Below are positions 3,999-27,187 of a stretch of DNA of 42,374 bases, one piece after another. The stretch is taken from positions 1 to 42,374 of the forward strand of contig CANHFG010000012.1 in NCBI GenBank assembly GCA_947459875.1, given 5' to 3'. Origin of the DNA: Ignavibacteria bacterium. Lineage in GTDB: Bacteria; Bacteroidota; Ignavibacteria; Kapaibacteriales; Kapaibacteriaceae. How positions within the stretch are numbered: the stretch's first letter is position 1; each line of letters opens with the position of its first letter. Below the pieces are notes generated by a model, which worked only from the letters and a program-made list of their open reading frames with translations, was not told the origin of the DNA and made no database searches. The position numbers were made by a program, and so were the translations under genes.

Positions 3999-5366
3999 TT
4001 ATAGTGAATAGCTAACGAAAAGTTGAGCTCCGAAGAACGCCGCAGACTGTTGAGAGACAATAAACAGTACTTCCCACGGCATCTGATTTGGTCTTTCATC
4101 TACAATGCTCTCGATGGAATTGCTCAGACCGTGCTGATACATCGAATACCCTCGCAAGCCAACAGTGAAGGACTTAGATATCCACACCTGCATATTCACA
4201 CTCAAAGCAAAGTCAAGAGCAAGACCACTGCCAGACGTGGTCAGGTTAACTGCATCGCGATAGGTGCGAGCTCTGTATGAGAGAATTGACGGCCCTACAC
4301 CAAGAGTTGCCGATACCCCGACCGTATTAAATCCGATAGCGTCCAGTGGAGTAATATGCCACGTACCCAACAGGTGAAACGAATACGCATCCATCCCGAG
4401 GGAGTTTTGCACCGTAGAATCTTGAACAGTGGGAGGCTGTGCCACCAGCATGGCGCGGAATCCAATGTCATGCAGTTCGCTGACGTACATGGACGCTTCG
4501 ACGCCAGACGTGAATGACACTGGCTGATAATCCAGGGAGGGACGTCGAAACCTACTCCCGAAAGGCAACTCAGCAAAGGCATCCGGTCGCATAACCGAAG
4601 CAACGACCCCACTAAACGCGGTCACATACGCATCAGCAGATCGCGGGCAAACCTTAGAAACATCAGCATATTTAAGTTCATTATCTGTGACAGGATTAAT
4701 GCATGCCTCGAACTCGGGGGGGAAGCTCTGCATGTATGCGAAGGTTATACCGGAAAGTCGCACTGCCGTGTTAAAGTATGTATGATCACCCCGCACTTTG
4801 AACCATCTCGGAGATATAGCGCCAACGTCAGGAGTAAGGTCCTCAATGAGTGTTACCGGAATACAGGTAAACTTCTGTTGCGGTAGATCCACAGCAGGAT
4901 CATATGCCTCACCTTCCGCAATAAGCAAGTTGTCTTGTGTTGCAACCATAGGAACGCCTGTCTTGACTGAACCACTTGATAGTCGGACAGAGACCCGTAG
5001 GACATTTATGTCGGCGAACTGGCGTGGAGCAACACGACCAAGAATCCTGCGCATACCGGTATCACTGACGAAAAGGTCGGTCTTACTGGCCAAGAGCTTT
5101 TCGTAGTCACGCAGGTATCGTTCAAGAGTGGGTACCTCATCGGCTGAGAAAACGACGGAATCAACGATGGAGTCCCGACGCATTCCCAGGAACGTCACTC
5201 CAGACCCTTTGACGACCTTCATCGAATCGTGGTTTCCACTGCGTCGCCCAATGCCGAAATACATCTTCGTATTGTTTGAAATCGTTGCACCTAAGCGTGG
5301 CAGCTGGGCTACGGCGGTCACAGCCGATACTAGCGTCACAGTAAGAAGCACGAGTATTTTATTCAT
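3999..5366 (-). CDS. Predicted secreted/outer-membrane barrel protein, copy A of tandem cassette
   Basis: 455 residues with a signal peptide (hydrophobic run at 4-20, likely cut after AVA-Q). The N-terminal domain (about 25-230) contains SADEVPTLERYLRDYEKLL and a run of short beta-like segments; the C-terminal part ends FVSYSL, with alternating hydrophobic residues typical of a barrel. It is homologous along its length to the gene at 1826-3205. The ATG overlaps the TGA stop of the preceding lipoprotein gene as ATGA. No catalytic motif or known domain is recognisable. The conserved gene pairing suggests a lipoprotein/barrel complex in the envelope, but that is inference. Confidence 0.8.
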   Translation of the reverse strand: MNKILVLLTVTLVSAVTAVAQLPRLGATISNNTKMYFGIGRRSGNHDSMKVVKGSGVTFLGMRRDSIVDSVVFSADEVPTLERYLRDYEKLLASKTDLFVSDTGMRRILGRVAPRQFADINVLRVSVRLSSGSVKTGVPMVATQDNLLIAEGEAYDPAVDLPQQKFTCIPVTLIEDLTPDVGAISPRWFKVRGDHTYFNTAVRLSGITFAYMQSFPPEFEACINPVTDNELKYADVSKVCPRSADAYVTAFSGVVASVMRPDAFAELPFGSRFRRPSLDYQPVSFTSGVEASMYVSELHDIGFRAMLVAQPPTVQDSTVQNSLGMDAYSFHLLGTWHITPLDAIGFNTVGVSATLGVGPSILSYRARTYRDAVNLTTSGSGLALDFALSVNMQVWISKSFTVGLRGYSMYQHGLSNSIESIVDERPNQMPWEVLFIVSQQSAAFFGAQLFVSYSL

Positions 5367-6091
5367 GGCTTGACAGTCACATATTGAAAGACACTCCCTT
5401 GGCTCTGTGATAACTCGATGCCATCGCTGAAGAGAACGTTACGAAATGTCACCCTCTTTCGGTCCAACTCAACAGTCATTTCCCCGTCAGATTGAATCTG
5501 GGCGGCAAAATCGGTCGCGGCGACATTCAGAGTGGATAGTCCAAGACCCTGAAACACGCGTGACGCTATACGCTTAAAAGTGCCGACCGATCGATACACA
5601 GTTAGTTCGACAATCTCATCTTGGCCCAGCGCAGGCGAAATCGTGACCACAAGTCCGGATGTCCTCGAAGCAGAAAAGGTGCGCTTATACGAAAGACGGG
5701 GTGCAAGGGCGAACCGCGCTCTCTCTACCGGCCTACCGGGGCCTTGGAATCCAATCTCTAACTCTGAAGTGCCAATCGGTAAGACTATGGGTGTAGATGA
5801 TAGCTGATATGGAAATCCATATTGTAATCCACGCTTGACGCCGTTGATATAGAGATAGGATCTCCGAAGAGATTCAACCACTGGTCCATCACGGCCATGA
5901 CGCGCATCCATCGTCACGGCATACTCATCCAAAGGATACATGACTTCCGCGCGGATCGCCAGAAAGACAGACCTATCTGCACCCATATCGTCATCAGCCG
6001 CAACCGACGGATCCGCCTCACTTACATAATGGCTACACGACTGGCTCAGGAATATCAGGACGAGTATGCCACATAGAAATGCGTGTTTCAT
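5363..6091 (-). CDS. Predicted lipoprotein, copy A of tandem cassette (first gene of the block)
   Basis: 242 residues; the signal segment (residues 1-18) ends LSQSC with Cys19 as the probable lipidation site, followed by SHYV as in copy B. The remainder is predicted beta-rich (many alternating V/L/I residues) and ends in LFSDGIELSQSQGSVFQYVTVKP, nearly matching the copy B terminus. It is the promoter-proximal gene of the four-gene minus-strand block; a divergent intergenic space of 122 bases separates it from truA. I see no strong ribosome-binding site. Function unknown; not similar to any lipoprotein family I can name. Confidence 0.75.
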   Translation of the reverse strand: MKHAFLCGILVLIFLSQSCSHYVSEADPSVAADDDMGADRSVFLAIRAEVMYPLDEYAVTMDARHGRDGPVVESLRRSYLYINGVKRGLQYGFPYQLSSTPIVLPIGTSELEIGFQGPGRPVERARFALAPRLSYKRTFSASRTSGLVVTISPALGQDEIVELTVYRSVGTFKRIASRVFQGLGLSTLNVAATDFAAQIQSDGEMTVELDRKRVTFRNVLFSDGIELSQSQGSVFQYVTVKP

Positions 6092-6201
6092 AAGAACCCC
6101 ATACGAGTAGACATCTAACTTCGGAAAACAAATCTACCACAGGCAGAAGGAATGAACCGTCACACGGTGGGCTTACATCTCGAACAATTGCCCATCGATG
6201 A

Positions 6202-6209
6202 TACTTTTG
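6202..6209 (+). promoter_or_regulatory. TAnnTTTG -7 element just upstream of truA
   Basis: TACTTTTG matches the Bacteroidota sigma-factor -7 consensus TAnnTTTG and ends four bases before the truA ATG, so the transcript would be leaderless or nearly so. No convincing TTTG -33 element is seen at the expected spacing of about 20 bases, which lowers confidence. Confidence 0.35.
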
Positions 6210-6213
6210 CCTG

Positions 6214-6978
6214 ATGCCGCGACTTCGACTGCTGATTGCGTACGATGGAACCAACTATGTTGGCTGGCAGCGCCAGACCAACGGCGTGTCTGTGCAGCAG
6301 CGAATCGAAGAAGCGCTGACGGTGGCCTACGGCGTGCCATGCATCATCCATGGAGCCGGCAGAACCGATGCCGGCGTGCATGCCAGCGGGCAGTGCGCGC
6401 ACGTGGAGCTGCCGGAGGGGGCTCATCAGATCCCGATCAACAAGGTGGCGGTGGCCATCAATACACGTCTGCCGAAAGACATCCGCATACTGAGCGCCGA
6501 GCGTGTGCACGATTCGTTCCATGCACGCTTCGATGCGGTCTGGAGAGAGTACGTCTATAGCATCGCGCTCAAACCAAGTGTGTTTACAAGACTGACGTCG
6601 TGGGATCCGGAAGCCCCCTTCGACCGGGACCTTTTCGAACAAGCCCTGCAGGTCATGCGCGGGCGGCACGACTTTACGGCGTTCTCGAAGTCCAACCCCG
6701 ATACGTCCAGCTATGTGTGCAATCTGCAGACCTGCCAGGCAACGATAAACGGTGATGTGCTCGAGGTCAGATTACGCGCAGACCGGTTCGTGTACGGAAT
6801 GTGCCGGGCCATCATTGGTGCATGCATGTCCGTTGCACGACAACGATTTACGCTCGATCAGCTAACCTCCATGCGCGACTCCGCATCGCGTTCCGTAGCT
6901 CCTCTTCTTGCTCCGGCACATGGCCTGTGCCTGACGGCAATTGGCTACCCGGAGGTGTCGACGGCCGACCCTAGCTAA
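6214..6978 (+). CDS. truA: tRNA pseudouridine(38-40) synthase TruA
   Basis: 254 residues, the usual TruA length. It isomerises uridines 38-40 of the tRNA anticodon stem to pseudouridine in the cytoplasm. The N-terminus LLIAYDGTNYVGWQRQ and the catalytic motif GRTDAGVHA (Asp52 is the nucleophile) are diagnostic; RHDFTAFSK and the C-terminal FVYGMCRAIIG are also standard TruA elements. The ATG is preceded by no Shine-Dalgarno sequence but by a -7-like element. Its TAA stop at 6976-6978 overlaps the end of the convergent peptidase gene by eight bases. Confidence 0.96.
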   Translation: MPRLRLLIAYDGTNYVGWQRQTNGVSVQQRIEEALTVAYGVPCIIHGAGRTDAGVHASGQCAHVELPEGAHQIPINKVAVAINTRLPKDIRILSAERVHDSFHARFDAVWREYVYSIALKPSVFTRLTSWDPEAPFDRDLFEQALQVMRGRHDFTAFSKSNPDTSSYVCNLQTCQATINGDVLEVRLRADRFVYGMCRAIIGACMSVARQRFTLDQLTSMRDSASRSVAPLLAPAHGLCLTAIGYPEVSTADPS

Positions 6979-7819
6979 GCCACGGTGGTGTTTCTTCGAG
7001 GGCCATCGTGCAGGCCCTCCAAAGGATGCGAAACGCCTCGGCCGCATTCTCATGCTCGCATGCAAAGGTCATCTCCCCTACCTGTTCAACGCCGTCATAG
7101 GCAAAGGCCTTCTGAGCCTGCTCCCTGCGATACGTATCGACCTCGAAGCGGGTACGCCCCGTGACCGAACGATGCCAGCACGAGCGATCGGCAATGGCCT
7201 GGCTAGCCCCTTTGCGCAGGAGCTCTCCGGTAGCCGTTGGCGTTAGACAGATCGCCGCGGTCGGTCCAAGGGTCTGCTTTGTGCAGACGAACACCGACGA
7301 AGTGTTCCACGCACGGATCTCTGCCTGAAGCTCACTGTTACCGCTGACCATGGCCAGCGGGATGCCTAAGCTTGCCAGCACGGCAGCATTGACTTCGACC
7401 TCGCCGGCGGCGCGTCCGTTAAGTCGTAGCTCACGAATGAGCGAGCCGATGTAGGTATGCGCCAGCAGACCACCGGGCGTTCCGGCCATGCTATGGTAGC
7501 CGACGCAAAAGGCCACGTCGGCACCGAACTGTACGCCCTCTAGCTGACAAAGGGGCTTATTGGAAGGCTTAGCCGAACCAACGACGAGTCGGGCCGACGG
7601 ATGAAGCTGGTCGAGCAGGACGTTGCGCATGATTCCGTGGCCGTCACCGACAACGACCTCGGCCTGCGGCTCCACCAACAGCACCCCCTCGATAACGGCA
7701 TTGACGTCGGCCGTGAGCAGTTTCTGCGCTGCGGCATATCCTCTGCCGTCAGGCATGAGCTGATCGTGATGGACCACGCCCGTGGCCCCCTCCATGTCGA
7801 CGGCGATGAAGACTCTCAT
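6971..7819 (-). CDS. M55 family zinc peptidase (DppA-like D-aminopeptidase)
   Basis: 282 residues. The start MRVFIAVDMEGATGV gives the zinc ligands Asp8 and Glu10 of the DppA fold; further ligands fit His61 (GDGHG), His109 (VGYHSMAG) and Glu140 (AAGEVEVNAA), in the order known for the B. subtilis enzyme (D8, E10, H60, H104, E133). Family members hydrolyse short D-amino-acid peptides, for instance from peptidoglycan turnover; the substrate here is unknown. The ATG overlaps the TGA of mtaB (ATGA), so the two genes are likely co-translated although functionally unrelated. Confidence 0.88.
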   Translation of the reverse strand: MRVFIAVDMEGATGVVHHDQLMPDGRGYAAAQKLLTADVNAVIEGVLLVEPQAEVVVGDGHGIMRNVLLDQLHPSARLVVGSAKPSNKPLCQLEGVQFGADVAFCVGYHSMAGTPGGLLAHTYIGSLIRELRLNGRAAGEVEVNAAVLASLGIPLAMVSGNSELQAEIRAWNTSSVFVCTKQTLGPTAAICLTPTATGELLRKGASQAIADRSCWHRSVTGRTRFEVDTYRREQAQKAFAYDGVEQVGEMTFACEHENAAEAFRILWRACTMALEETPPWLS

Positions 7820-9156
7820 GTCTTGACCTGTTCGGCTAGTGACGGTTGTTCAATGCTCGTTTCATCCAACACCTCGGCTCTTAGAGCGGCACCATCCTCG
7901 CAGACAAGCCGCACGCTGATGGGACGCTTCTGCATCTCCGGCTCACCCGGCAGACGAACGGCAACATGATTCTCCGTCCACCCGGTCCAGCATCCATACT
8001 CGGCCTCGTATCCCTCGGGAAGAAATGTCCGCACATGACCGATGTTCGCCCGATGGAACTCGATCGTACGCTGCTGACTCATCTGCCGCAGACGTCGCGT
8101 ACGCTCGCGTCGCGTGGCAACATCCACGCTGCCGCCCATTAGCGTTGCATCGGTATCGGCGCGCTCGGAGTACGTAAACACGTGTAGGTATGCCCATGGA
8201 AGATCGGCTAGGAACTGTTCTGTCTGGCGCGCGTGATGGTCTGTCTCGCCCGGGAAACCCGTGATCACGTCGATACCGACAGCTGCATCAGGTATCCGAC
8301 CGATGATCTTCTCCACCACCGACCGGTACATCGTCGAGTTGTACCTCCGGCGCATGCGTCGCAGTATTTCATCCGAACCGCTTTGCAGCGGTATGTGAAA
8401 GTGAGGCACGATCGTGCGAGACGATGCAAGGAACTCGATGATACCGTCGCTAATGGTATTCGGTTCGATCGAACCCAATCTTACCCGGTACGGCAGATCC
8501 ATGGCCTCGATCATATGCAGTAGATCGATCATGCGCGATCCGCCTGCATCGGCGTACTCACCGAGATTGATCCCCGAGACAACGCACTCATGAAACCCCT
8601 CACGGGCAATGGCCGTAAGCTCCTGACGCACGTCTGAGAGCGTCATCACGCGTGATGGGCCGCGCGCCTTGGGTATTGTGCAGAATGAGCAGGAGTAATC
8701 ACATCCGTCCTGCACCTTCAGAAATGCACGCGTACGAGTGTTCACCCGCGATGAGCGTGCCGGTGCGAACAGCGTCTGGCCGTTAAGGGGCGGAACCATC
8801 CGCAGGGGCACCGGTGACTGCATGATCGTGTCGGCCATCTCCGGGATGCTGATCTTCGAGGCCGTGCCGACCACGGCGCTGACACCGTCGATCGACAGAA
8901 CCGCATCGGGTTTGAGCTGAGCATAACATCCGGTAACGACCACGCGGGCTTCTGGCGCTGCACGAAGCCCCTTACGTACGACCTTCCGGCACTCCACATC
9001 GGCGGCTTCGGTAACGGTGCAGGTGTTGACAACCAGCAGGTCCGCCGGCTGACCATATTCCACGATCTCGTGCCCCATCGCGGCAAAGCGCCGCTCGATG
9101 GCCGACGTCTCCGTGGCATTTAACTTGCAGCCCAACGTGGTCAGTGCAACGCGCAT
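7816..9156 (-). CDS. mtaB: tRNA (N6-threonylcarbamoyladenosine(37)-C2)-methylthiotransferase MtaB
   Basis: About 446 residues. Radical-SAM methylthiotransferase that converts t6A37 to ms2t6A in tRNAs reading ANN codons. The N-terminal UPF0004 domain has its three cluster cysteines in LGCKLN, VNTCTVT and TGCYAQ; the radical-SAM CxxxCxxC is C152-C156-C159 in GCDYSCSFC. LGCKLN and VNTCTVTEAAD mark MtaB rather than MiaB or RimO. The reading frame also offers a TTG ten codons upstream (9186); I prefer the ATG at 9156 because the protein then begins directly at the conserved MRVALTTLGCKLN. A divergent gene starts 45 bases away. Confidence 0.93.
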   Translation of the reverse strand: MRVALTTLGCKLNATETSAIERRFAAMGHEIVEYGQPADLLVVNTCTVTEAADVECRKVVRKGLRAAPEARVVVTGCYAQLKPDAVLSIDGVSAVVGTASKISIPEMADTIMQSPVPLRMVPPLNGQTLFAPARSSRVNTRTRAFLKVQDGCDYSCSFCTIPKARGPSRVMTLSDVRQELTAIAREGFHECVVSGINLGEYADAGGSRMIDLLHMIEAMDLPYRVRLGSIEPNTISDGIIEFLASSRTIVPHFHIPLQSGSDEILRRMRRRYNSTMYRSVVEKIIGRIPDAAVGIDVITGFPGETDHHARQTEQFLADLPWAYLHVFTYSERADTDATLMGGSVDVATRRERTRRLRQMSQQRTIEFHRANIGHVRTFLPEGYEAEYGCWTGWTENHVAVRLPGEPEMQKRPISVRLVCEDGAALRAEVLDETSIEQPSLAEQVKT

Positions 9157-16461: not shown

Positions 16462-19400
16462 CTATCGGCCGCCTGAGATCGACAGTCGGATATCAACCCC
16501 GACCTGGGTTGTGCTGAAACCCGGATTGGCCGCCCCCTCGCTGAAATTTCCCTCGTACTTGAAGAAGGCAGAGGCGGTAACGCGCTCGCTGAGCGTGTAG
16601 CGGGCACGGGGCTCGATGACGATCTGTGTGGTACCGTCCACCACGGCGCCTCCGGGCTTGTAGTTCAGCACATCGTACTGACCGCGACGGTTGCGGCGGA
16701 CCTGCGTATTGAAGGTTAACTCGAGATCGTTGTTAAGATCCATCCCGAGCAGTTTCAACGGCACATTGCGGCGCAGATACGATGCCTGGATCTGAAACTC
16801 ATGTGACGTCTCCTGAGAAATCGTCGCCCGGGCAGAAGCATTGAATCCATGGGTTGTGGTGACGTTGTACCGTGCCGTGGCCGTGAGCAGACCGTTGAGT
16901 TTTCTCTCGTCAAAACTCAGATTAAGGCCCACCAGCGGGGTGAAGCCTGACTTGATCTGCTGGATCTCGATGAAACGACCGTTATCGTTCGTGCGGGCAT
17001 TCTCGGTGTAGTTCGACTGATAGGCGTGCTCGAGAAACACGCGCTGAGCAAGCCCCTTGAACAGAGGCAGCTTTTCGATACCGTCCCAGCGCAGGGTCCA
17101 GTTCAGTGCCGGAATAGCGCGGGCGATCTCGCCGCTGAAGAACTGCCACGATTCGAAACCTTCGCGGAATGACTCTGCCAGCGCATTCAGCAGCTGTGAA
17201 TTACGATTCGTTGTGTCAGGATTTGCCAGAATGACGGCCTTGCGCTCGTTGTAGAGACGTACGACGTTTTCGACGTTATCATCCGACAGACCAAAGGGCA
17301 TGTCGGGGAAGCTGATAAACGTCCGGTCGAGCGTCTGACGCTTGACCACATTGGTGAATGTCGGTATCCCGGCAGCATCGGTTTCGACGCGCTGATTGCG
17401 CGTGTAACCAATATCGGTTCGCATCGTCAGATCGAGCGTTGCACCGGGCCAGAGCGGACGGCTGGTCTGCACCTGGAGGGTATTCTTCTGCGAATAGTCG
17501 TCCTGCATTACGGCATCCGGCGGACGCACGCCCGGGGCACTCGCAAGGCGGAAGAATGGGAAGGTCGACGATGGCTCGATCGAGACCTCTCCGTGCGGAT
17601 TGGAAACCAAGCCCATCTGATAGGCCGTACTGGGTCCAAGCGACGGATCATTGTCGCGGAACAGCACCGTACGAGTCCAGAAATTGCCAAATCCCGACTG
17701 GCCAAGGACGCCCTTATTGATGGCATTCGTTCCCTGATTAAATGTCGTCGTGATATTCTCGAAACCGAAAAAGAGTTCCTGAATGAAGCGGCCCACGCCG
17801 CCCCCTTCCTTTGGCACGGGACCAAAGATCTCGGCACCCAGCTGGCGCCAGCGCAGCACCGGGCTTAGCCGGAACGTAGCCGCATAGCGGGCCTCACGAA
17901 CAACGTCACGCAGCGTGGTGTCGGCCTGAAGAGGATCGAAAAGTGTGAAGTTGGACGTGTACGAACTCGTCGTCTCAAGGAAGCGATTCAGCCCCCCGAT
18001 GTCCGGCAGGCGAGGCCTGAGAGAGATCGTGACGTTCTGATTGTAGTTACTGATGCTACCAAGATTGAGTACACTACCCTGCCCGCCGAAGATCTGCGAG
18101 GTCAGCTGCGAAGCCGTGCGCTGGCGGCCGTTTTCATCGAGCTCAAAGGGCACGAGCGTCGACATGGACATGACCTTGTAGTCGAGCGTCGGGCTCAGGA
18201 AGCCATTCTCGACAAATCGCCAGTTAAAGCCAAGAGACTTCTCGGCGATGAATTCGCGGATAATGGGGCTTGCCTGCACCAGAAAGCGCGACTGTTCGGT
18301 CACACGTGCGCGCGTCATGTTCATACTGGCATTGAGCGACTGCGGCAGGAAGTTGATCTTCGCATCCTTGTAGGCCTTAAGCGCCCAGATATCCGTGAGG
18401 AACTTCAACGGAGAGACCGACAGCTTAGGGGCAATATTCACGGCATAGTCGACCTTGAAACGCCATCGCCAGTCGAACCGCTGCTGCACCACCTGGGACC
18501 GCTCAAACTCCTGACTGTAGGAGAAGTTGAACGTAAGCTTATTGAAGATGTCATCAACGTACCAGGCCTTGACGGGAATGCCCAGCCGAAGTCCGTTGAG
18601 TGCCCACTGATCCTGCACGCGAACTCGTTGCGAGCGGCGTCGGACCTCTTCGGCAACCTGCTGGGCGACCTCTTCGCTGGCCCCCTTGCGGGCCGTGTCA
18701 CGCGCGGCAGCCTGTGCAGCTGTCTCAAGGACGACGTCGTTCTGCGCCTGGAACTGCGGTGTCTCGGTGATCTCGGCATGAGTGTAGCTGATGGGGATCT
18801 TTGTCTCGCGCAGACTCTTTGGTAGCAGGCGTTCAAGGCCCAGCTGCACTGTTGTTGTCCACGTTGTAGAGTTCAAACGATTACCGAACCGTTCCTCAAG
18901 CCGGTGGAAGTTCGGCGTAGAGGTGTTGACCGCCGTGGTGATGTCACCGATATCGGCCAGTTTCAGCGTGGCATTCCCGATCGCCGCCCAATCGTTGTCG
19001 GCCGTAGGATCAACGGCTCGAAGTTCGTTCACCCACATGGCGGTGGAGAGCTCGTTGGGATAGCGTTCGGCCGGGTTGGCTACGCCGAACCCGAAGAACG
19101 CAATACGCGTCATGATGGGATTACCCTTGATGGCATAGATGCCCTGCGGATCACCCGGCACCGGAAACTCCTGCCGGTGATCGACACGAGACTTATCGCG
19201 GATCTCCTTGATCGCCGTCAGGTCCTCGATACGAATGCGAAGGTCCTGCCAGCCCCGTATCATCGGACGTCGGTATTCGTAATAGTTCGCCGAATCGATA
19301 CCAAAACGAATGAAGCAGTACGCCGTTGGCGTCGAACCCTGCGCCACAGCCGACGGCATCGTGTTATCGCCGTGGATGAAGAAAGCAAGCTCTTTGTAGA

Positions 19401-22400
19401 AGAACAGATCCCACGGACGGAAGATGCGCGCCGTAAATCGCTCTTCGCCGGCGCGAAGATTCCGTGTGCGCACCACGAGAGACTGTTCGTTGAGGTACAA
19501 CAGCTGATACGGGTCGGGGTTCTGAAGCTGCTGCGGCGCTCTCACACCCGGCGGCATGGTATAAAAGTCCGGCGCATCCTGATTTTCTTCGCGGTTGACG
19601 TAGGCAACCTGCACCACCGTGTCGGTCTGATCAATGCCGGACTGAAACTGATGGTTGCGCAGCCAGAAGGATCCCACTACGCCCCAGTCGGCAATTGAGA
19701 CCTTCACGCTACCGCCCTGAAAGTGAATGCGGGCATACTGGATGTTGGTGAACAGAGGATTGCCGACGATCGAGTCCGGACGGCGCACGGGAATACGGAA
19801 CTGATACCATCCGCTCGACGGGTTACCACCGACGATCTGCGGATTCAGCGACGGGTTCGGTATGAGTTTGACCTCGTAGCGGAAATAGCTGTTGTCGAGC
19901 GAGATGGTCTGACCGTTATTGCGGTTGAGTACCTCCGTGTCGGGGAACTGACCGAACTCCGACTGCGTGGCATTGCCCTCGTAGTTGTTGTAGCGGCGGA
20001 ACTGATCCTCGGCCTGGTTATCTCGATTGCTTTGGAAATCGAAGAAGTAGTTATCCCGCGCCGGATCAGATTCCTGACTCAACGGGGCTGGATAGGCCAA
20101 CTTCTCCTGCTCGTCGGTCAGCCCGTCGATGCCGGTGTCTTCACCGAGGTCCACAAGGTTGTTCGCCGGCGGACGGTCTTCGGTATTGAGTCCCTGGTTA
20201 GGAATGATGTCTTCACTGATCTGCCCCAGATCGATGAACATCCGTGAGCCGGGCTCATAGCCTTCAATGCGCATCATGACTTCAATGAAGTCGATGTTCT
20301 CGTTGTCGAAGTTTGTGTTGAACGGAGAAAGCAGACGCGTTAGTCCGCCCCATACTCGCGGGCGGTTGTCGCTTTGAAACTGTGCGGCTCTCTGACGCAC
20401 GGCCAGACTGTCCGGACCGTTCCATTCGGGGTTTTGCGCGTCTATGAACTCCGGATTGGCATTATGAATGCCCCGTTCATCGGGCACAAACACGATGCGC
20501 AGAGGATTGATGTTGTTGCGGCCCTGCACCTGAGCGCGATTCGGATAAACGTCCACCTGCGGCACGTCGGGCACAAACTTCTGGAACCAGAAGACCTTCC
20601 CACGGTACTTCTGCGCTGTTGTGTCACTGTCCCACAGTGTTGAATCCTTCGATGCACTGGAGTGCTGCCAGGTCGTTGGCGTGAGGCCAAAACCCAGGTA
20701 TCGCCGGGCCGACTCGAAGTCATCGACGTAGGCAACGGCCTTGCCGTTGTCGCTTGAGACCGTCGAGAACCGCTTGTTCGGCGTCGGATCAACCATGGCC
20801 CACTCACCGTTGAAGGCAAAGGTGGACTTCTCCTTGGTGTCGACGCCCGGAATGAAGTTCAATGCGTCCGTCAGCCACGGAAGTTCGGCATTGAACTTCG
20901 CGTCAAGTCCGAACATGAAATTGGCATTCGGCTCCTGCCCCGGCAGCACGCGGTCTACAATGGCCGCCTGATCGTAGTTCATCATCGTCATGCCGATCGA
21001 TCCGTTCATCCGGCGCTTGGTGAACAGTCGCATATCGGCACGCATGCCAAGAAGTGTCCGCGTTGTCAGATTGAACAGATCGTTCTTTTCAAATTCGATA
21101 TTGAGATTGGCATTCGGCAGCTGAGCACGCGGATTCAGGAGCGACAACGAGCCGCTGTTATAGTCAACCATGAAGTCCACGCCCTCGCGCAGGGCCACAC
21201 CGTCAAGTGTCACACGCACGCTACCAGGGGCCAGCTGATAGGCAAGCGGTATGCGGCTGCCCATCTGGGTGCCCGTGGCTTCGCCAACGATCAGAAAGCG
21301 GTCCTTGGCCGAAACAAGACGGGCAGCGATATCGGTGGTATCGTACACTTCGTTAAAGACATACTGCTCGGCCAGCTGAGCGTTGCCCTTTGCTGCGAAG
21401 TACTCGCGCAGGCCTTCACGGAACGGCTCCAGACTCGGGAAGGTGATCTCTCCTCGCTGTGAGTTAAAGATCGGGGGGCGTGGGTCGAATACGCCGTCAG
21501 GGGGCTCAACACCGGTACCATTATTCACCTGGTCGACACGGAAGATCGTCACGATCTTGTCCTGAGCGCCATCGATCACATCGGCCGAGTCATTCGTCGA
21601 CCGGTAGTACCACATGCCCAGACGTGCATCCTGCGGATTGATATTCGGCACTCCGATCGTGTAGCGGTTACGCATCATCCTCTTCCAGATCGAGCGGAAG
21701 CCCGGTTGCATCTGCGGGCGGGCGATCAGTTTCAGCAGGATGGTGTCTCGCTCGTTGGCATTGCGAGACAGCGTACCGACGTACTGATCGTCGGCGTCGG
21801 AAGTTGTCGGCCCCTCCACGCGATACGACACCGCGTAGTAGCGGTCATTACGCAAGTTCAGCACCGAGACCGTGCCTAGGTTAAGATCAACATCATAACG
21901 GCGCTTATCCAGAAGCACAAAGCGCCCCCTCTCAACAATACCGGCTTTGATCTCGGCCTGTGTAAGATTTGCCGGATACACTTCGCCGGAAGCAAACCGT
22001 ATCGACGGCAGTTCGGCGTAGGCAACAGCCTCGTTGGCCTGAACCTCACGCAGGTCGGTCGTGGATTCCCACACTTCGATTTCTTTGACGACAACATCAG
22101 CACCGACCTTGGACAGGGCCGGTGTAGCCGTGCGGAAGTAGTCCTTCCAGACGGCGAAATATGCCGTATCGATGAAAAAGTGATTCTTGGCGTAGTCGTA
22201 GGCGCGTATCGTAAACTGCTGCCGCGACGAGCCACCTCTGGCATTGATGAACTGTCGCTCTCCGCGACGCTGCGAGGCAATGGTCTTGATAAACAAAGGG
22301 CCAAACTGGAAATCGGCTCTCACACCAAAGAGTGTCTGTCCGCCGCCGATGAGCGCACTCTGTGATTCCAGATTTACGTTGCCGAACTCGACACGCTTGA

Positions 22401-23274
22401 TGATATCGTCGTCGTTACCTTCAAAACCGATTCGAAACCGGTTGTTGAACTCAAACTGGTTCAGCGTATTCCAGTCAACGTTCATACGGAGCTTATCACC
22501 GATGCGCCCGCTAACGTTAACCTGGATGTTCTGGTTGAAGATCGGGGCCGACTGATTCTGTCCGGCAATCGATGCCGTGCCCAGCGACTGAGCGTCCCAG
22601 CGCCAACCGGCCTGGATGTTGACCTCTCCGTTGACGTTGATCGAGATCTCGGGCTTGCCGAAGATGCCAAAGAGAGGATTTTGCGGCAGCGGGATCGTGA
22701 TGTTCGTTGCCTGATCAATGAGCTTGGTAAGCTCGGCCGCAGAAAGTGGCTTCTTCATCTCGTACTTCAGCAGCGCAGAATCACGGGCCCTGCGCAGAAG
22801 CTGCTCACGCCGCTGAAGAAGGTATGCGTCAAGCGAAAGGGGCGTCATGGTTCCCACATCTGCCCCCTCGGCCATCTCATAGAGCTTGACAACCTCGGCA
22901 GTTGTGTCCAGTCCACCACGCTGAGTATATCCCTTTGGAGCGCGGATATACCGGTACGACCTCTGAGGAGGTGTCAGCCCAAACCGATTGATGAACACGT
23001 CCGGGAAGTATCCGGGAATTTCTTTATTGGTCGGGTCGCCAATTCCTTCAGGACCCTTGGCCAGAGAGTCTCGCCGGGTTGTATCCTGCGGCATCATGCC
23101 TAGCATCGAACCGAGCAGCGTTGTCGTCAGCTGCACCGCACCGATATGCAGTGGCTCGCTTTCGGCAAGCCACGGCAGTAAGGACGTTTCGGCCAGAGCA
23201 CACTCCGGCACTGTTGCCATGGCGCTCAGCGCACAAAGCAACGCAGTCCACGTTCGTCGGGATATCGCGAACAC
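16462..23274 (-). CDS. sprA: SprA/Sov, T9SS outer-membrane translocon
   Basis: 2270 residues, close to the very large Flavobacterium SprA. SprA is a 36-strand barrel that exports proteins with T9SS signals across the outer membrane. A signal peptide (about 7-28, ending ECALA) is followed by the SprA N-terminal motif region (GNVNLESQSALIGGGQTLFGVRADFQFGPLFIKTIASQRRGE), a second such module, long beta-rich repeats and many aromatic strands to the end. The start is GTG at 23274, preceded by AAAGGTGAG eight to nine bases upstream. A -7 element lies 117 bases upstream. The stop is followed by the parA leader; the two are co-directional but separate. Confidence 0.93.
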   Translation of the reverse strand: MFAISRRTWTALLCALSAMATVPECALAETSLLPWLAESEPLHIGAVQLTTTLLGSMLGMMPQDTTRRDSLAKGPEGIGDPTNKEIPGYFPDVFINRFGLTPPQRSYRYIRAPKGYTQRGGLDTTAEVVKLYEMAEGADVGTMTPLSLDAYLLQRREQLLRRARDSALLKYEMKKPLSAAELTKLIDQATNITIPLPQNPLFGIFGKPEISINVNGEVNIQAGWRWDAQSLGTASIAGQNQSAPIFNQNIQVNVSGRIGDKLRMNVDWNTLNQFEFNNRFRIGFEGNDDDIIKRVEFGNVNLESQSALIGGGQTLFGVRADFQFGPLFIKTIASQRRGERQFINARGGSSRQQFTIRAYDYAKNHFFIDTAYFAVWKDYFRTATPALSKVGADVVVKEIEVWESTTDLREVQANEAVAYAELPSIRFASGEVYPANLTQAEIKAGIVERGRFVLLDKRRYDVDLNLGTVSVLNLRNDRYYAVSYRVEGPTTSDADDQYVGTLSRNANERDTILLKLIARPQMQPGFRSIWKRMMRNRYTIGVPNINPQDARLGMWYYRSTNDSADVIDGAQDKIVTIFRVDQVNNGTGVEPPDGVFDPRPPIFNSQRGEITFPSLEPFREGLREYFAAKGNAQLAEQYVFNEVYDTTDIAARLVSAKDRFLIVGEATGTQMGSRIPLAYQLAPGSVRVTLDGVALREGVDFMVDYNSGSLSLLNPRAQLPNANLNIEFEKNDLFNLTTRTLLGMRADMRLFTKRRMNGSIGMTMMNYDQAAIVDRVLPGQEPNANFMFGLDAKFNAELPWLTDALNFIPGVDTKEKSTFAFNGEWAMVDPTPNKRFSTVSSDNGKAVAYVDDFESARRYLGFGLTPTTWQHSSASKDSTLWDSDTTAQKYRGKVFWFQKFVPDVPQVDVYPNRAQVQGRNNINPLRIVFVPDERGIHNANPEFIDAQNPEWNGPDSLAVRQRAAQFQSDNRPRVWGGLTRLLSPFNTNFDNENIDFIEVMMRIEGYEPGSRMFIDLGQISEDIIPNQGLNTEDRPPANNLVDLGEDTGIDGLTDEQEKLAYPAPLSQESDPARDNYFFDFQSNRDNQAEDQFRRYNNYEGNATQSEFGQFPDTEVLNRNNGQTISLDNSYFRYEVKLIPNPSLNPQIVGGNPSSGWYQFRIPVRRPDSIVGNPLFTNIQYARIHFQGGSVKVSIADWGVVGSFWLRNHQFQSGIDQTDTVVQVAYVNREENQDAPDFYTMPPGVRAPQQLQNPDPYQLLYLNEQSLVVRTRNLRAGEERFTARIFRPWDLFFYKELAFFIHGDNTMPSAVAQGSTPTAYCFIRFGIDSANYYEYRRPMIRGWQDLRIRIEDLTAIKEIRDKSRVDHRQEFPVPGDPQGIYAIKGNPIMTRIAFFGFGVANPAERYPNELSTAMWVNELRAVDPTADNDWAAIGNATLKLADIGDITTAVNTSTPNFHRLEERFGNRLNSTTWTTTVQLGLERLLPKSLRETKIPISYTHAEITETPQFQAQNDVVLETAAQAAARDTARKGASEEVAQQVAEEVRRRSQRVRVQDQWALNGLRLGIPVKAWYVDDIFNKLTFNFSYSQEFERSQVVQQRFDWRWRFKVDYAVNIAPKLSVSPLKFLTDIWALKAYKDAKINFLPQSLNASMNMTRARVTEQSRFLVQASPIIREFIAEKSLGFNWRFVENGFLSPTLDYKVMSMSTLVPFELDENGRQRTASQLTSQIFGGQGSVLNLGSISNYNQNVTISLRPRLPDIGGLNRFLETTSSYTSNFTLFDPLQADTTLRDVVREARYAATFRLSPVLRWRQLGAEIFGPVPKEGGGVGRFIQELFFGFENITTTFNQGTNAINKGVLGQSGFGNFWTRTVLFRDNDPSLGPSTAYQMGLVSNPHGEVSIEPSSTFPFFRLASAPGVRPPDAVMQDDYSQKNTLQVQTSRPLWPGATLDLTMRTDIGYTRNQRVETDAAGIPTFTNVVKRQTLDRTFISFPDMPFGLSDDNVENVVRLYNERKAVILANPDTTNRNSQLLNALAESFREGFESWQFFSGEIARAIPALNWTLRWDGIEKLPLFKGLAQRVFLEHAYQSNYTENARTNDNGRFIEIQQIKSGFTPLVGLNLSFDERKLNGLLTATARYNVTTTHGFNASARATISQETSHEFQIQASYLRRNVPLKLLGMDLNNDLELTFNTQVRRNRRGQYDVLNYKPGGAVVDGTTQIVIEPRARYTLSERVTASAFFKYEGNFSEGAANPGFSTTQVGVDIRLSISGGR

Positions 23275-23390
23275 GGTCGGCAGCTCACCTTTGGTTGTTC
23301 AACAAAACTGACGACCAACCCCCCTGGAGGTCGGCAACATGACGTAACAAATGGCGAGGATATCCCGACTCCGTGTTTCTGCGTGATGGA

Positions 23391-23398
23391 CAAAGATA
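23391..23398 (-). promoter_or_regulatory. TAnnTTTG -7 element for sprA
   Basis: On the minus strand TATCTTTG fits the Bacteroidota -7 box and lies 117 bases upstream of the sprA GTG. No clear -33 TTTG is visible at the right distance. It lies 11 bases from an opposite-facing -7 element. Confidence 0.4.
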
Positions 23399-23408
23399 AC
23401 CGACACGT

Positions 23409-23417
23409 TACTTTTGC
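23409..23417 (+). promoter_or_regulatory. TAnnTTTG -7 element for the GH2-like gene
   Basis: TACTTTTGC on the plus strand matches TAnnTTTG and lies about 92 bases upstream of the ATG at 23509. It falls downstream of the earlier in-frame ATG at 23383, which supports the later start. No -33 TTTG at standard spacing is seen. Confidence 0.4.
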
Positions 23418-23508
23418 ACGGCAGTCGCGGGGGGTATTCTTTTTGTCCTTTGCGACTCGGCAACCGGCTTGGTTGCACGATTCATGCCGCATCCTATTGC
23501 ATCACGCC

Positions 23509-26103
23509 ATGACCTATCTACAGCGCACTTCTGAGACCGTGCACCGAACTGTTGTCCTCCTGCTGGCGACCCTGCTCGCGGCCGGCACGCTCCAGGCGTC
23601 TATCACGGTGCGGCAATCAGCCCCCTTTCTTGACAGCGAAACCCGCAAAGTCTTCGATCTGGCCGGTCAATGGCAACGTATTGAAGATGGAGCAGTTGTC
23701 AGTTCCGTTACGGTTCCCGGTGATCTCGGAGGCAATGAATCGGCAAAGCTTCGCAAGACACTAAGGATCGACAGTTCAACGCTACTGCGAAACACCTGGC
23801 ATCTGCAGTTTTTCGGCATGGTCGACGCTGTCGAGCTCTCTGTGAATGGACGGTTCATCATGCGCTATCCGGGTGGAATGTCGCCGTTCTCGATCCGCAT
23901 CCGGGAAGGTATTCTGCGTGTAGGCTCGAACACCATCGAGCTGAACGTTATCCCGATGAGCACCCTGGCTCTGAACGTGCAGCGCAATGGTCGTGCAGCA
24001 CCGAAGCAATATCTCGGGATCCTGCGCGAGGTCTTTCTTGTCGGCACACCGCATGTATGGACTGAGAGCGTTCAGATGCGCACGTCGATCGACGCTGGAA
24101 TGGGGCGCGTGGAGGTGTCGGCGCGGATCATGAGCGGCATGATCGAACGTGTGCGCTCGCTCAGCAGCACCTCGGACGTTCTCTCGAACTCTAACCTCAA
24201 CTTCGGAGTCGAGGCACGCATTATTGATCCGGGAACCGGGGTTGTGATCAGCAGCACGGGCGTTCAGCCTTCGACCATCGGACGTGCGCGCGAGATCACG
24301 CCGAAGATGAACCTCAGCGTTGTCGGCGCCAGGCTCTGGAGTCCTGCCGATCCTCATCTTTACGAGGTCGAAATTCGTCTCACTGCCGATGGTGGTGTTG
24401 TCGACACCTATCGGCAGCCCTTCGGTTTCCGCACGGCTAAGGTCGCCAGCATCGATGGTGCACGCAAGCTTCTTTTGAACGACACCGTGCTCGATCTGCA
24501 TGCTATCGATTACATCGAGGACGCTCCGGGCCGCGGGCCGGCACTGAGTGTAAGCCAGATGCAGTATGACGTGTCGCTGATGAAGACGCTTGGCGTCAAC
24601 GCCGTACGGATCGTTCACGGCAGCCCCCATCCGGTGTTTCTGACGCTTTGTGATCGCTATGGAATTCTCGTGCTGGCAGACCTGCCGTGCGCCGATATTC
24701 CGTCGAGCGTTCTGGGCGAACCCGAGCTTGCAACACGGATCCGAAACATGGCCGAGCGCTCACTGATTTACCTCGATCCGCACCCGTCGGTTCTGGGCAT
24801 TGGCCTCAGCGACGGACTCGACGAAACGGCGTCGGAGGTGACCAAGTACCATGAACAGATGGGCAGGTACACCCGGCGCATGTCCTCCAAGCTGATCTAC
24901 AAGATCGTCGCCTCCCGCCAGCTGAGTCAGACAAGTGAAGGGGGCTTCGATTTTATCGTGGTCGACCTGACCTCACTGGCCGACAGTACGGCGATGATGC
25001 AGCTGCGACGGCGCGAGCAGCCCCTTTTCACATCAGCCGCCATTGTTGCGCATTTCGGTGGACGTGTTTCGCCGTCGAACACCAACGGCTTCAGTGACCC
25101 ACTCTCGAATGAAGCACAGGCGCTGCTGATCAGCAAGTTTTTCAGCTGGGCCATCTCATCACAGATCGCCGGCGTCATGGTCTGGTCCTTTAACGACTAC
25201 CGCCTCGAGCGTCCGACCATGCTTGCCGATCATTACGATCCGTACACATGCACTTCGGGCCTTGTCGATGCCTACCGTCAGCGGCGTGTGTCGTTTGAGA
25301 TGTACAAGGCATTGATCAATGACGAAAAGCTTCCGCTGCTGCAGGCCCGTGAGAGCGGATTCTCTACGCCGATCGTCTTTATCATCGCCGGTATTCTTCT
25401 GGCGATCCTGCTGGCGCTGATTGCAAATCAATCGCGGCGCTTTCGGGAGTACATGGTTCGTGCGCTCATTCGTCCGTATAATTTCTACGCCGACATTCGT
25501 GACCAGCGCATCCTGTCGACCGCGCAGACAGGTATGCTGGCAATGGTCATTTCCGGAGGCGTCGGACTGGTGGTTGCATCGTTTCTCTACTTCGTCCGTG
25601 TGAACTCGGACGTTGAGAACACTCTGCATATTCTGATCCCGAATGATACGCTCTACGAAACGCTGCGTTTTGTTGCCTGGCATCCGGAACTCGCCACCCT
25701 TGCCTGGTCGGCGGGTGTTCTGCTTGTTCTTGGACTTCTGAGTCTGATGCTCAGGCTCGGAGCGGCCTTCGTGCGCAGCCGTATCAGCCTGCGCGATACG
25801 TTCACCATCGTCACGTGGTCAAGTCTTCCCTTTCTGATCATGCTGCCCATTGGAATTGTCCTCTACCAGGCACTGTCGGACAATGAGCTTTCACTCGTTG
25901 TGCCACTGGCCGTTCTGGGGGTCTCGATCTGGGTTCTGCTTCGCATTCTGCGGGCCACGAGCGTGGTCTTCGACGTGCGGCCTGCGATCGTGTATGCGAT
26001 CGGCTTCGGTCTTCTGTTCGGAGCAATTGTAGGCCTCGTCGTATCGCTCGACTTTACGCATCACGGGTTTGCCTTCCTGTCACACTACGTGCACATAGGC
26101 TGA
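23509..26103 (+). CDS. GH2-like pseudoglycosidase fused to a Yip1-like membrane domain
   Basis: About 864 residues. After a signal or anchor segment (about 14-27), residues about 40-175 look like the GH2 sugar-binding jelly roll (DLAGQWQ; VELSVNGRF; LGILREVFLVGTP), then an Ig-like part (LWSPADPHLYEVEI) and a degenerate TIM barrel (DVSLMKTLGVNAVRIVHGSPHPVFLTLCDRYGILVLAD; GVMVWSFNDY). The catalytic acid motif, normally LGNE after HPSV, reads LSDG (433-436), and the nucleophile segment reads PLFTSAAIVAHFG (505-517) with Ala where Glu is expected, so hydrolysis is unlikely. A membrane helix (about 621-642) leads into five further membrane segments resembling Yip1. The start at 23383 is rejected because a -7 element lies after it and the signal peptide starts here. 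The stop is seven bases before hrcA. Role unknown; carbohydrate sensing or scaffold is a guess. Confidence 0.72.
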   Translation: MTYLQRTSETVHRTVVLLLATLLAAGTLQASITVRQSAPFLDSETRKVFDLAGQWQRIEDGAVVSSVTVPGDLGGNESAKLRKTLRIDSSTLLRNTWHLQFFGMVDAVELSVNGRFIMRYPGGMSPFSIRIREGILRVGSNTIELNVIPMSTLALNVQRNGRAAPKQYLGILREVFLVGTPHVWTESVQMRTSIDAGMGRVEVSARIMSGMIERVRSLSSTSDVLSNSNLNFGVEARIIDPGTGVVISSTGVQPSTIGRAREITPKMNLSVVGARLWSPADPHLYEVEIRLTADGGVVDTYRQPFGFRTAKVASIDGARKLLLNDTVLDLHAIDYIEDAPGRGPALSVSQMQYDVSLMKTLGVNAVRIVHGSPHPVFLTLCDRYGILVLADLPCADIPSSVLGEPELATRIRNMAERSLIYLDPHPSVLGIGLSDGLDETASEVTKYHEQMGRYTRRMSSKLIYKIVASRQLSQTSEGGFDFIVVDLTSLADSTAMMQLRRREQPLFTSAAIVAHFGGRVSPSNTNGFSDPLSNEAQALLISKFFSWAISSQIAGVMVWSFNDYRLERPTMLADHYDPYTCTSGLVDAYRQRRVSFEMYKALINDEKLPLLQARESGFSTPIVFIIAGILLAILLALIANQSRRFREYMVRALIRPYNFYADIRDQRILSTAQTGMLAMVISGGVGLVVASFLYFVRVNSDVENTLHILIPNDTLYETLRFVAWHPELATLAWSAGVLLVLGLLSLMLRLGAAFVRSRISLRDTFTIVTWSSLPFLIMLPIGIVLYQALSDNELSLVVPLAVLGVSIWVLLRILRATSVVFDVRPAIVYAIGFGLLFGAIVGLVVSLDFTHHGFAFLSHYVHIG

Positions 26104-26110
26104 CGCAGGA

Positions 26111-27187
26111 ATGATCACGCCTGGACATTTCATCACGCCCGCTCACCGTGAGCTGAACGAGCGCGAGCGCACTATCCTTCAGGCCGTTGTCCACCTTTAC
26201 ATACTCGGTGGCACGCCCGTAGGCTCGCGGATGCTATCAACGTTTCTGGCTCGAACCATGCCGCTGAGTCCGGCGACCATCCGGAACACCATGGCCGACC
26301 TCGAACTGATGGGCTACATCACTCACCCGCACACGTCGGCCGGCAGAATGCCCACCGATCTTGGGTATCGGTTCTATGTCGATTCGCTGATCACTGCTCA
26401 GCCCCCTGACCTGAACCGTGGCCTGCAGGGTGCCGATGCTGCCGTGGCCGATTTGCTGAATGTCCCCCGCGAGAGCGTCGTGCGCGACGCCTCGCGCATT
26501 CTCGGCTCGTTAAGCAAGCATCTGGCCGTCGTGCAGATACCCACCGTGCGCGAGGCCCGCGTTCGAAGGGTCGAGATCGTTGCGTTGAGCAGCGAACGTT
26601 TCGTGGTGATCATCGACCTCGACAGTGAGCGCGTGCGCACCGTTAGCTTGGAAACCCGCTCGGCGGTCGCTGCGGATTCGGTACAGGAGATCGCCCGCTA
26701 TCTCAACGAACGCCTCTATGGTCGGCCGCTGTCGGACATCTTTGACCTGCCGGCCGAGACATCTGCGGTGCACCTTGTCGAACCGTCGCTGCTGAGACTA
26801 TTCGTCGATCAGATCGGCGGAATCGGCAATGCCGATGAGGGGGCTACTGTTCACGTGTCCGGCGCTACGAACCTCATAGCCCAGCCCGATGCCGATTCTC
26901 CGGAGAGACTGCGCAGCATCATCGAACTGATCGAGAACGAGGACGTCATCGTTCACCTTCTCGGCTCGTCGAGCACTGCCGACGGGGTGAGCATCCGCAT
27001 CGGCAATGAGATCCCAAATGTTGAGCTGCATGACTACTCGCTGGTCACCTCCACGTACCGTGCCGGCACGGCACGCGGAACGCTCGGCGTGATCGGGCCG
27101 CGTCGAATGGACTACGGCCGAATGATCAACATCGTTCAGCTGATGGCCGGCGTCCTTAGCAGAACCTTCGGGCATCACACACCATAG
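26111..27187 (+). CDS. hrcA: Heat-inducible transcription repressor HrcA
   Basis: 358 residues. The N-terminal winged helix NERERTILQAVVHLYILGGTPVGS, then LSPATIRNTMADLELMGYITHPHTSAGRMPTDLGYRFYVD, is diagnostic. The GAF-like middle and C-terminal dimerisation parts follow (GVIGPRRMDYGRMINIVQ). HrcA represses chaperone genes through CIRCE operators; I found no CIRCE near this operon. It starts seven bases after the GH2-like gene with AGGA immediately beside the ATG, too close to be an ideal ribosome-binding site. grpE follows after 58 bases. Confidence 0.95.
   Translation: MITPGHFITPAHRELNERERTILQAVVHLYILGGTPVGSRMLSTFLARTMPLSPATIRNTMADLELMGYITHPHTSAGRMPTDLGYRFYVDSLITAQPPDLNRGLQGADAAVADLLNVPRESVVRDASRILGSLSKHLAVVQIPTVREARVRRVEIVALSSERFVVIIDLDSERVRTVSLETRSAVAADSVQEIARYLNERLYGRPLSDIFDLPAETSAVHLVEPSLLRLFVDQIGGIGNADEGATVHVSGATNLIAQPDADSPERLRSIIELIENEDVIVHLLGSSSTADGVSIRIGNEIPNVELHDYSLVTSTYRAGTARGTLGVIGPRRMDYGRMINIVQLMAGVLSRTFGHHTP

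Follow-up and report, generated by a model that had tools for sequence, protein, structure and literature searches.

A widely conserved fusion of a GH2-like barrel without its catalytic glutamates to a predicted Yip1 membrane module in Ignavibacteria

GH2 enzymes bear their catalytic glutamates where barrel strands 4 and 7 end. Most work on pseudoenzymes treats them as paralogues of an enzyme that is still active. The GH2 beta-glucuronidases and beta-galacturonidases with solved structures (8dhe, 6ncw) show the domain order jelly roll, Ig-like domain, barrel, which is also that of the exported part of the protein described here. For its membrane part the closest known proteins are bacterial members of the Yip1 family such as YknW, which modulates the assembly of the YknXYZ complex (PMC4887032). 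Two further sources describe the glycan-sensing RsgI anti-sigma factors, in which extracellular substrate-sensing parts sit on a transmembrane regulator (PMC12203970, PMC4711584). We found no paper on a GH2-Yip1 fusion in the open-licence literature searched.

The window, by which we mean the whole analysed stretch of 42,374 nucleotides, carries on its + strand a gene (23509..26103) for an 864-residue fusion of this kind, defined by its open reading frame, Pfam matches, an AlphaFold model and full-length homologues; the open frame spans 23383–26103 and the product is read from the ATG at 23509. All parts of the gene given below lie on the same strand. The full-length AlphaFold2 model, built from 65 sequences (pLDDT 89.7, pTM 0.86), predicts in order a probable signal peptide, a jelly roll, an Ig-like domain, an eight-stranded barrel, a transmembrane helix, two short helices and the helices of a Yip1 module. 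The signal peptide (residues 1–30, 23509..23598, probably cleaved after LQA) is suggested by a hydrophobic helix at residues 3–25 followed by a disordered stretch, as seen in the hydropathy and the model, and the N-termini of relatives are similar. The jelly-roll (GH2 N) domain comprises residues 41–205 (23629..24123), where Glyco_hydro_2_N matches residues 55–181 at 1.6e-4, under the cut-off, and the Ig-like domain residues 206–312 (24124..24444), where Glyco_hydro_2 matches residues 222–308 at 3e-12. The degenerate (beta/alpha)8 barrel, residues 313–612 (24445..25344), has eight strands in the model and matches only the first quarter of the Glyco_hydro_2_C profile (6–83 of 302, 3.6e-12). GH2 enzymes were also the top Foldseek matches of the model in the PDB (8dhe, E 4.8e-37; 6ncw; 5z1a), with a TM score of 0.83 over the target for 6ncw and of up to 0.84 among the GH2 matches, so that Pfam, AlphaFold and Foldseek all place the GH2 domains in their usual order.

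The chain then enters the membrane by a first transmembrane helix at residues 622–641 (25372..25431; hydropathy and model), which is followed by a basic, probably cytosolic loop at residues 642–670 (RRFREY..RPYNFYADIRDQR; 25432..25518), recognised by its conservation in 112 aligned rows, and by the Yip1 module, residues 671–864 (25519..26100), for which the models predict five transmembrane helices after a cytosolic N-terminus. The cytosolic side is assigned because a signal peptide, a single transmembrane helix and basic residues precede the module. The Yip1 profile (PF04893) matched residues 652–842 with 26.1 bits in an hmmscan of the whole protein and with 33.6 bits in the genome search, the curated cut-off being 28.6. 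Compared with 8dhe and 6ncw, the protein is without both catalytic glutamates, has diverged in the later barrel and is fused to a membrane module. It has in common with YknW-type proteins the five-helix Yip1 module, with PF04893 above the cut-off in the genome search and in a stand-alone relative, but adds a 600-residue exported pseudoenzyme and an extra transmembrane helix; moreover, YknW works with an ABC transporter, which we did not see for the window protein.

To locate the catalytic places, a family profile of 129 members was aligned with 16 canonical GH2 proteins of the same phylum, profile to profile (hhalign). The acid/base glutamate of the canonical proteins aligns with Gly436 of the motif LSDG (codon 24814..24816) and the nucleophile glutamate with His515 of the motif IVAHFG (codon 25051..25053); the asparagine of the canonical Asn-Glu pair is gone as well, Asp435 standing in its place. 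Gly436 lies just past the strand 428–435 and His515 in the strand 511–516, so that each place coincides with the end of a barrel strand (4 and 7) or comes directly after it, as read from the secondary structure of the model. Thus, the protein has glycine instead of the acid/base glutamate and histidine instead of the nucleophile. An earlier, sequence-only reading of this DNA had reported a GH2 fold with both glutamates replaced, followed by membrane entry and a five-helix Yip1-like end, all of which agrees with our data; it was also right to take LSDG as the acid/base place, but its nucleophile place, Ala510, lies five residues too early.

The same fusion proved to be nearly universal in the class of the window. 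Of 60 relatives 59 have it, nearly always as a single full-length copy, and the class search recovered it from 239 of 245 genomes (227 of the 233 good ones); most of the named relatives are Candidatus Kapaibacterium or Ignavibacteria genomes. Full-length copies also occur in four other families of the phylum (f30, f33, f48 and f60). Since the class search counts other GH2 proteins, which add extra matches in many genomes, we claim a single copy for the order and the window's genome only; in the latter, the genome search gave no second GH2 barrel and no second Yip1 match. The matches of family f19 in the class search correspond to the Yip1 part alone. Beyond the phylum, the analysis covered one motif-based scan of genome contigs. 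Three loci titled Bradyrhizobiaceae (L152), Desulfobulbaceae (L216) and Armatimonadetes (L199) carry a gene of the fusion family and are probably mislabelled bins; L152 and L216 have its usual neighbours. Two broken copies were also seen. At L058 (G024:C1:1992482-1994901), in a genome of the order that consists of one contig, the gene is spread over three frames and one of the matches contains an in-frame stop, which points to either a decaying copy or sequencing errors, and in an Ignavibacteria genome (L191:3709-6412) it lies in two frames (796 + 88 aa) owing to a frameshift or an assembly error.

The two residues of the dyad are unevenly distributed across the family. Glu436 is found in 17 of 149 members and Glu515 in 28 of 149, some of them in an altered context, and at the nucleophile place the residue varies by lineage (S, E, N, R, C, A and more). 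Both glutamates occur together in five of the 149, all from family f23 (5/5 f23 genomes sampled), and in none of the 54 members from the window's order. The f23 members keep the GH2 motifs RHEDHP, GHYPxHP, GIGNEF, [ST]EYG and FxDW around the dyad, and the best solved relative of the one f23 protein scanned is a beta-galacturonidase (6e-53). Because both residues and these motifs persist in the f23 version of the fusion, the family probably goes back to a membrane-anchored enzyme, and the description of the protein as a dead GH2, although supported for the window protein, does not extend to the origin of the family. In canonical sequence context, f25 and f28 members retain Glu436 without Glu515, and f33 and f48 members Glu515 without Glu436. 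If the ancestor had both glutamates, as f23 and the outgroup suggest, these opposite halves of the dyad imply that it was broken at least twice or that a residue was regained.

In a tree of the GH2 part with a canonical outgroup, the fusion family forms one clade (SH-aLRT 100) with f23 inside. The alternative topology, in which f23 is sister to the rest of the family and a single loss of the whole dyad would be allowed, was not rejected (AU p 0.25), and we therefore claim no count of whole-dyad losses. The tree of the Yip1 part leaves the exact place of f23 uncertain. A domain swap as the source of the intact f23 dyad is not favoured, since the f23 GH2 part falls inside the family relative to the canonical outgroup and f23 carries the same membrane module.

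Although it has lost its catalytic residues, the barrel is not in decay at the gene level. In a comparison with a relative of 95% identity (G008), dN/dS is 0.035 for the jelly roll, 0.12 for the Ig-like domain and, for the two barrel pieces that were covered, 0.027 and 0.058; the barrel is thus under strong purifying selection (0.03–0.06). The most conserved 39-residue stretch of the protein is 640–678, with 2.43 bits per residue in 112 members, and the stretch 642–680 averages 2.37 bits per residue in the same 112 rows, against 1.1–1.6 for the domains, the value for the jelly roll, the barrel and the Yip1 helices being 1.5. None of these members was chosen by the loop motif, and including the loci found by the motif gives the same outcome. 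Loop 640–678 is a candidate interaction surface. In family f19, the gene encodes only the transmembrane helix, the loop and the Yip1 module (258 aa) and occupies the same place adjoining smc; PF04893 matches this stand-alone relative with 32.8 bits, over the cut-off of 28.6. Because the Yip1 part outlives the GH2 part in this family, the membrane module is probably the core of the protein. Some f19 genomes are without even the Yip1-only gene, and no Yip1 remnant was seen in the 1.5 kb read upstream of smc in these genomes or in those of family f35.

Taken together, we lean, with moderate confidence, towards a vertically inherited inner-membrane protein with an exported pseudoenzyme domain that would serve as an inner-membrane scaffold or receptor. 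The residues at positions 436 and 515, the breadth of the family, the low dN/dS, the conserved loop, family f19 and the YknW precedent all support this interpretation, and the loss of the cutting residues in almost every lineage suggests a binding or organising role in the envelope. The exported domain would descend from an active GH2 glycosidase that lost its dyad in nearly all lineages; the decayed periplasmic barrel may now bind a protein partner or a glycan of the envelope. Such binding could be relayed by the transmembrane part and its highly conserved cytosolic loop, which would hold a membrane complex or modulate it, in the way that YknW modulates the assembly of the YknXYZ transporter. 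Several points count against this reading: the Yip1 module had no significant match among solved structures, the complete dyad of f23 means that hydrolysis can coexist with the fusion architecture, and seven members of the window's genus have glutamates at 439 and at the nucleophile place, so that some relatives may have a rearranged activity. The proposal of the sequence-only reading, an envelope sensor or organiser rather than a hydrolase, is thus supported for the window protein as far as a non-hydrolytic role is concerned, the choice of sensor or organiser being less firmly placed. Here a single-copy, near-universal gene appears to have lost catalysis piecemeal, and with the full active site in one lineage and the enzyme part dropped in another, the family offers a natural series for studying a non-catalytic job. 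The inner-membrane protein itself is widely conserved in the Ignavibacteria/Kapabacteria group and other classes.

Of the alternatives, a membrane-tethered sugar sensor survives best, though we consider it unlikely. The decayed GH2 pocket would bind a specific glycan and the signal would cross to a cytosolic partner at the loop, as in RsgI, whose extracellular substrate-sensing parts on a transmembrane regulator provide a precedent (PMC12203970, PMC4711584). The likeness is one of function, an exported carbohydrate-related domain on a transmembrane regulator, with no homology claimed, and we saw no sigma factor or anti-sigma domain with the window protein. The maintenance of the GH2 fold under purifying selection and the conserved loop fit such a sensor, but the classical pocket residues differ between lineages, which is unlike what a pocket maintained for a single sugar would show; a regulator is neither fused to the protein nor a steady neighbour of it, and in f19 the Yip1 module has outlasted the sensor part.

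The gene neighbourhood points to another candidate partner. Neighbours are called sprA, smc, lpxB, lpxK, mreC/mreD and groES by what we take to be their families, judged from their sequences, and the gene calls in these comparisons are longest-ORF choices. Outside the order, smc lies directly downstream on the same strand in 39 of 40 coded loci, other classes included, often with gaps of 0–25 bases, and in 24 of the 40 lpxB is no more than six genes away; the f23 and f19 loci hold the same place beside smc. A membrane protein that ties chromosome segregation or lipid A assembly to the envelope would account for this arrangement. We nevertheless regard it as improbable: gene order may persist without functional coupling, the linkage to smc is gone in every coded locus of the order, where the fusion gene was kept, and f35 genomes have smc without the fusion gene. 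Smc remains a conserved genomic partner. The wider proposal, that GH2-Yip1 is an envelope component coupled to SMC, and to the lipid A genes, in several classes of one phylum, is very doubtful; if true, chromosome segregation or envelope growth would be tied, through the conserved cytosolic loop, to an exported, ex-catalytic glycan-binding domain. The smc gene of the window's genome is on a different contig, where it comes immediately after mreC/mreD-like genes (L263, G000:C27, around 4661–8185).

There is little likelihood that the protein has kept a glycosidase activity, unchanged or altered, by means of other acidic residues. In favour of this are the undamaged dyad of f23 in the same fusion and Glu439, three residues past the lost acid/base place and kept in 42 of 54 members of the order. 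Seven members of the window's genus combine this residue with a glutamate at the nucleophile place, and from their sequences some of these relatives may have a rearranged activity. However, the window protein has His515 and has lost the asparagine of the Asn-Glu pair, and its GH2_C match covers the first quarter of the barrel, compared with the whole barrel in the scanned f23 protein (1–298 of 302, 9e-52). Glu439 (within residues 433–440, 24805..24828) may mark a new function of the pocket.

The ATG of hrcA (26111..27187, +; Pfam HrcA 4.5e-51) follows the stop at 26103 after 7 bases, as the sequence-only reading had noted, and gaps of 2–15 bases recur in many loci of the window's family; even so, a heat-shock or proteostasis component tied to HrcA by co-transcription is highly improbable, and a heat-shock meaning unsupported, because hrcA is next downstream at 10 of the order's 18 coded loci and at 0 of 40 outside it, and because no CIRCE-like site with up to 3 mismatches occurs in the window, the one exact CIRCE core of the genome lying at a locus with a groES-like gene. 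Upstream, a sprA-like gene (16462..23274, −) is divergent from the fusion gene, an arrangement shared by 5 of the order's 18 coded loci and by 0 of 40 outside it, and one that, together with hrcA, is common in the window's own family. As hrcA is local to the order and smc follows the gene outside it, the simplest view is that hrcA joined the fusion gene later, as a local neighbour and not as its original partner.
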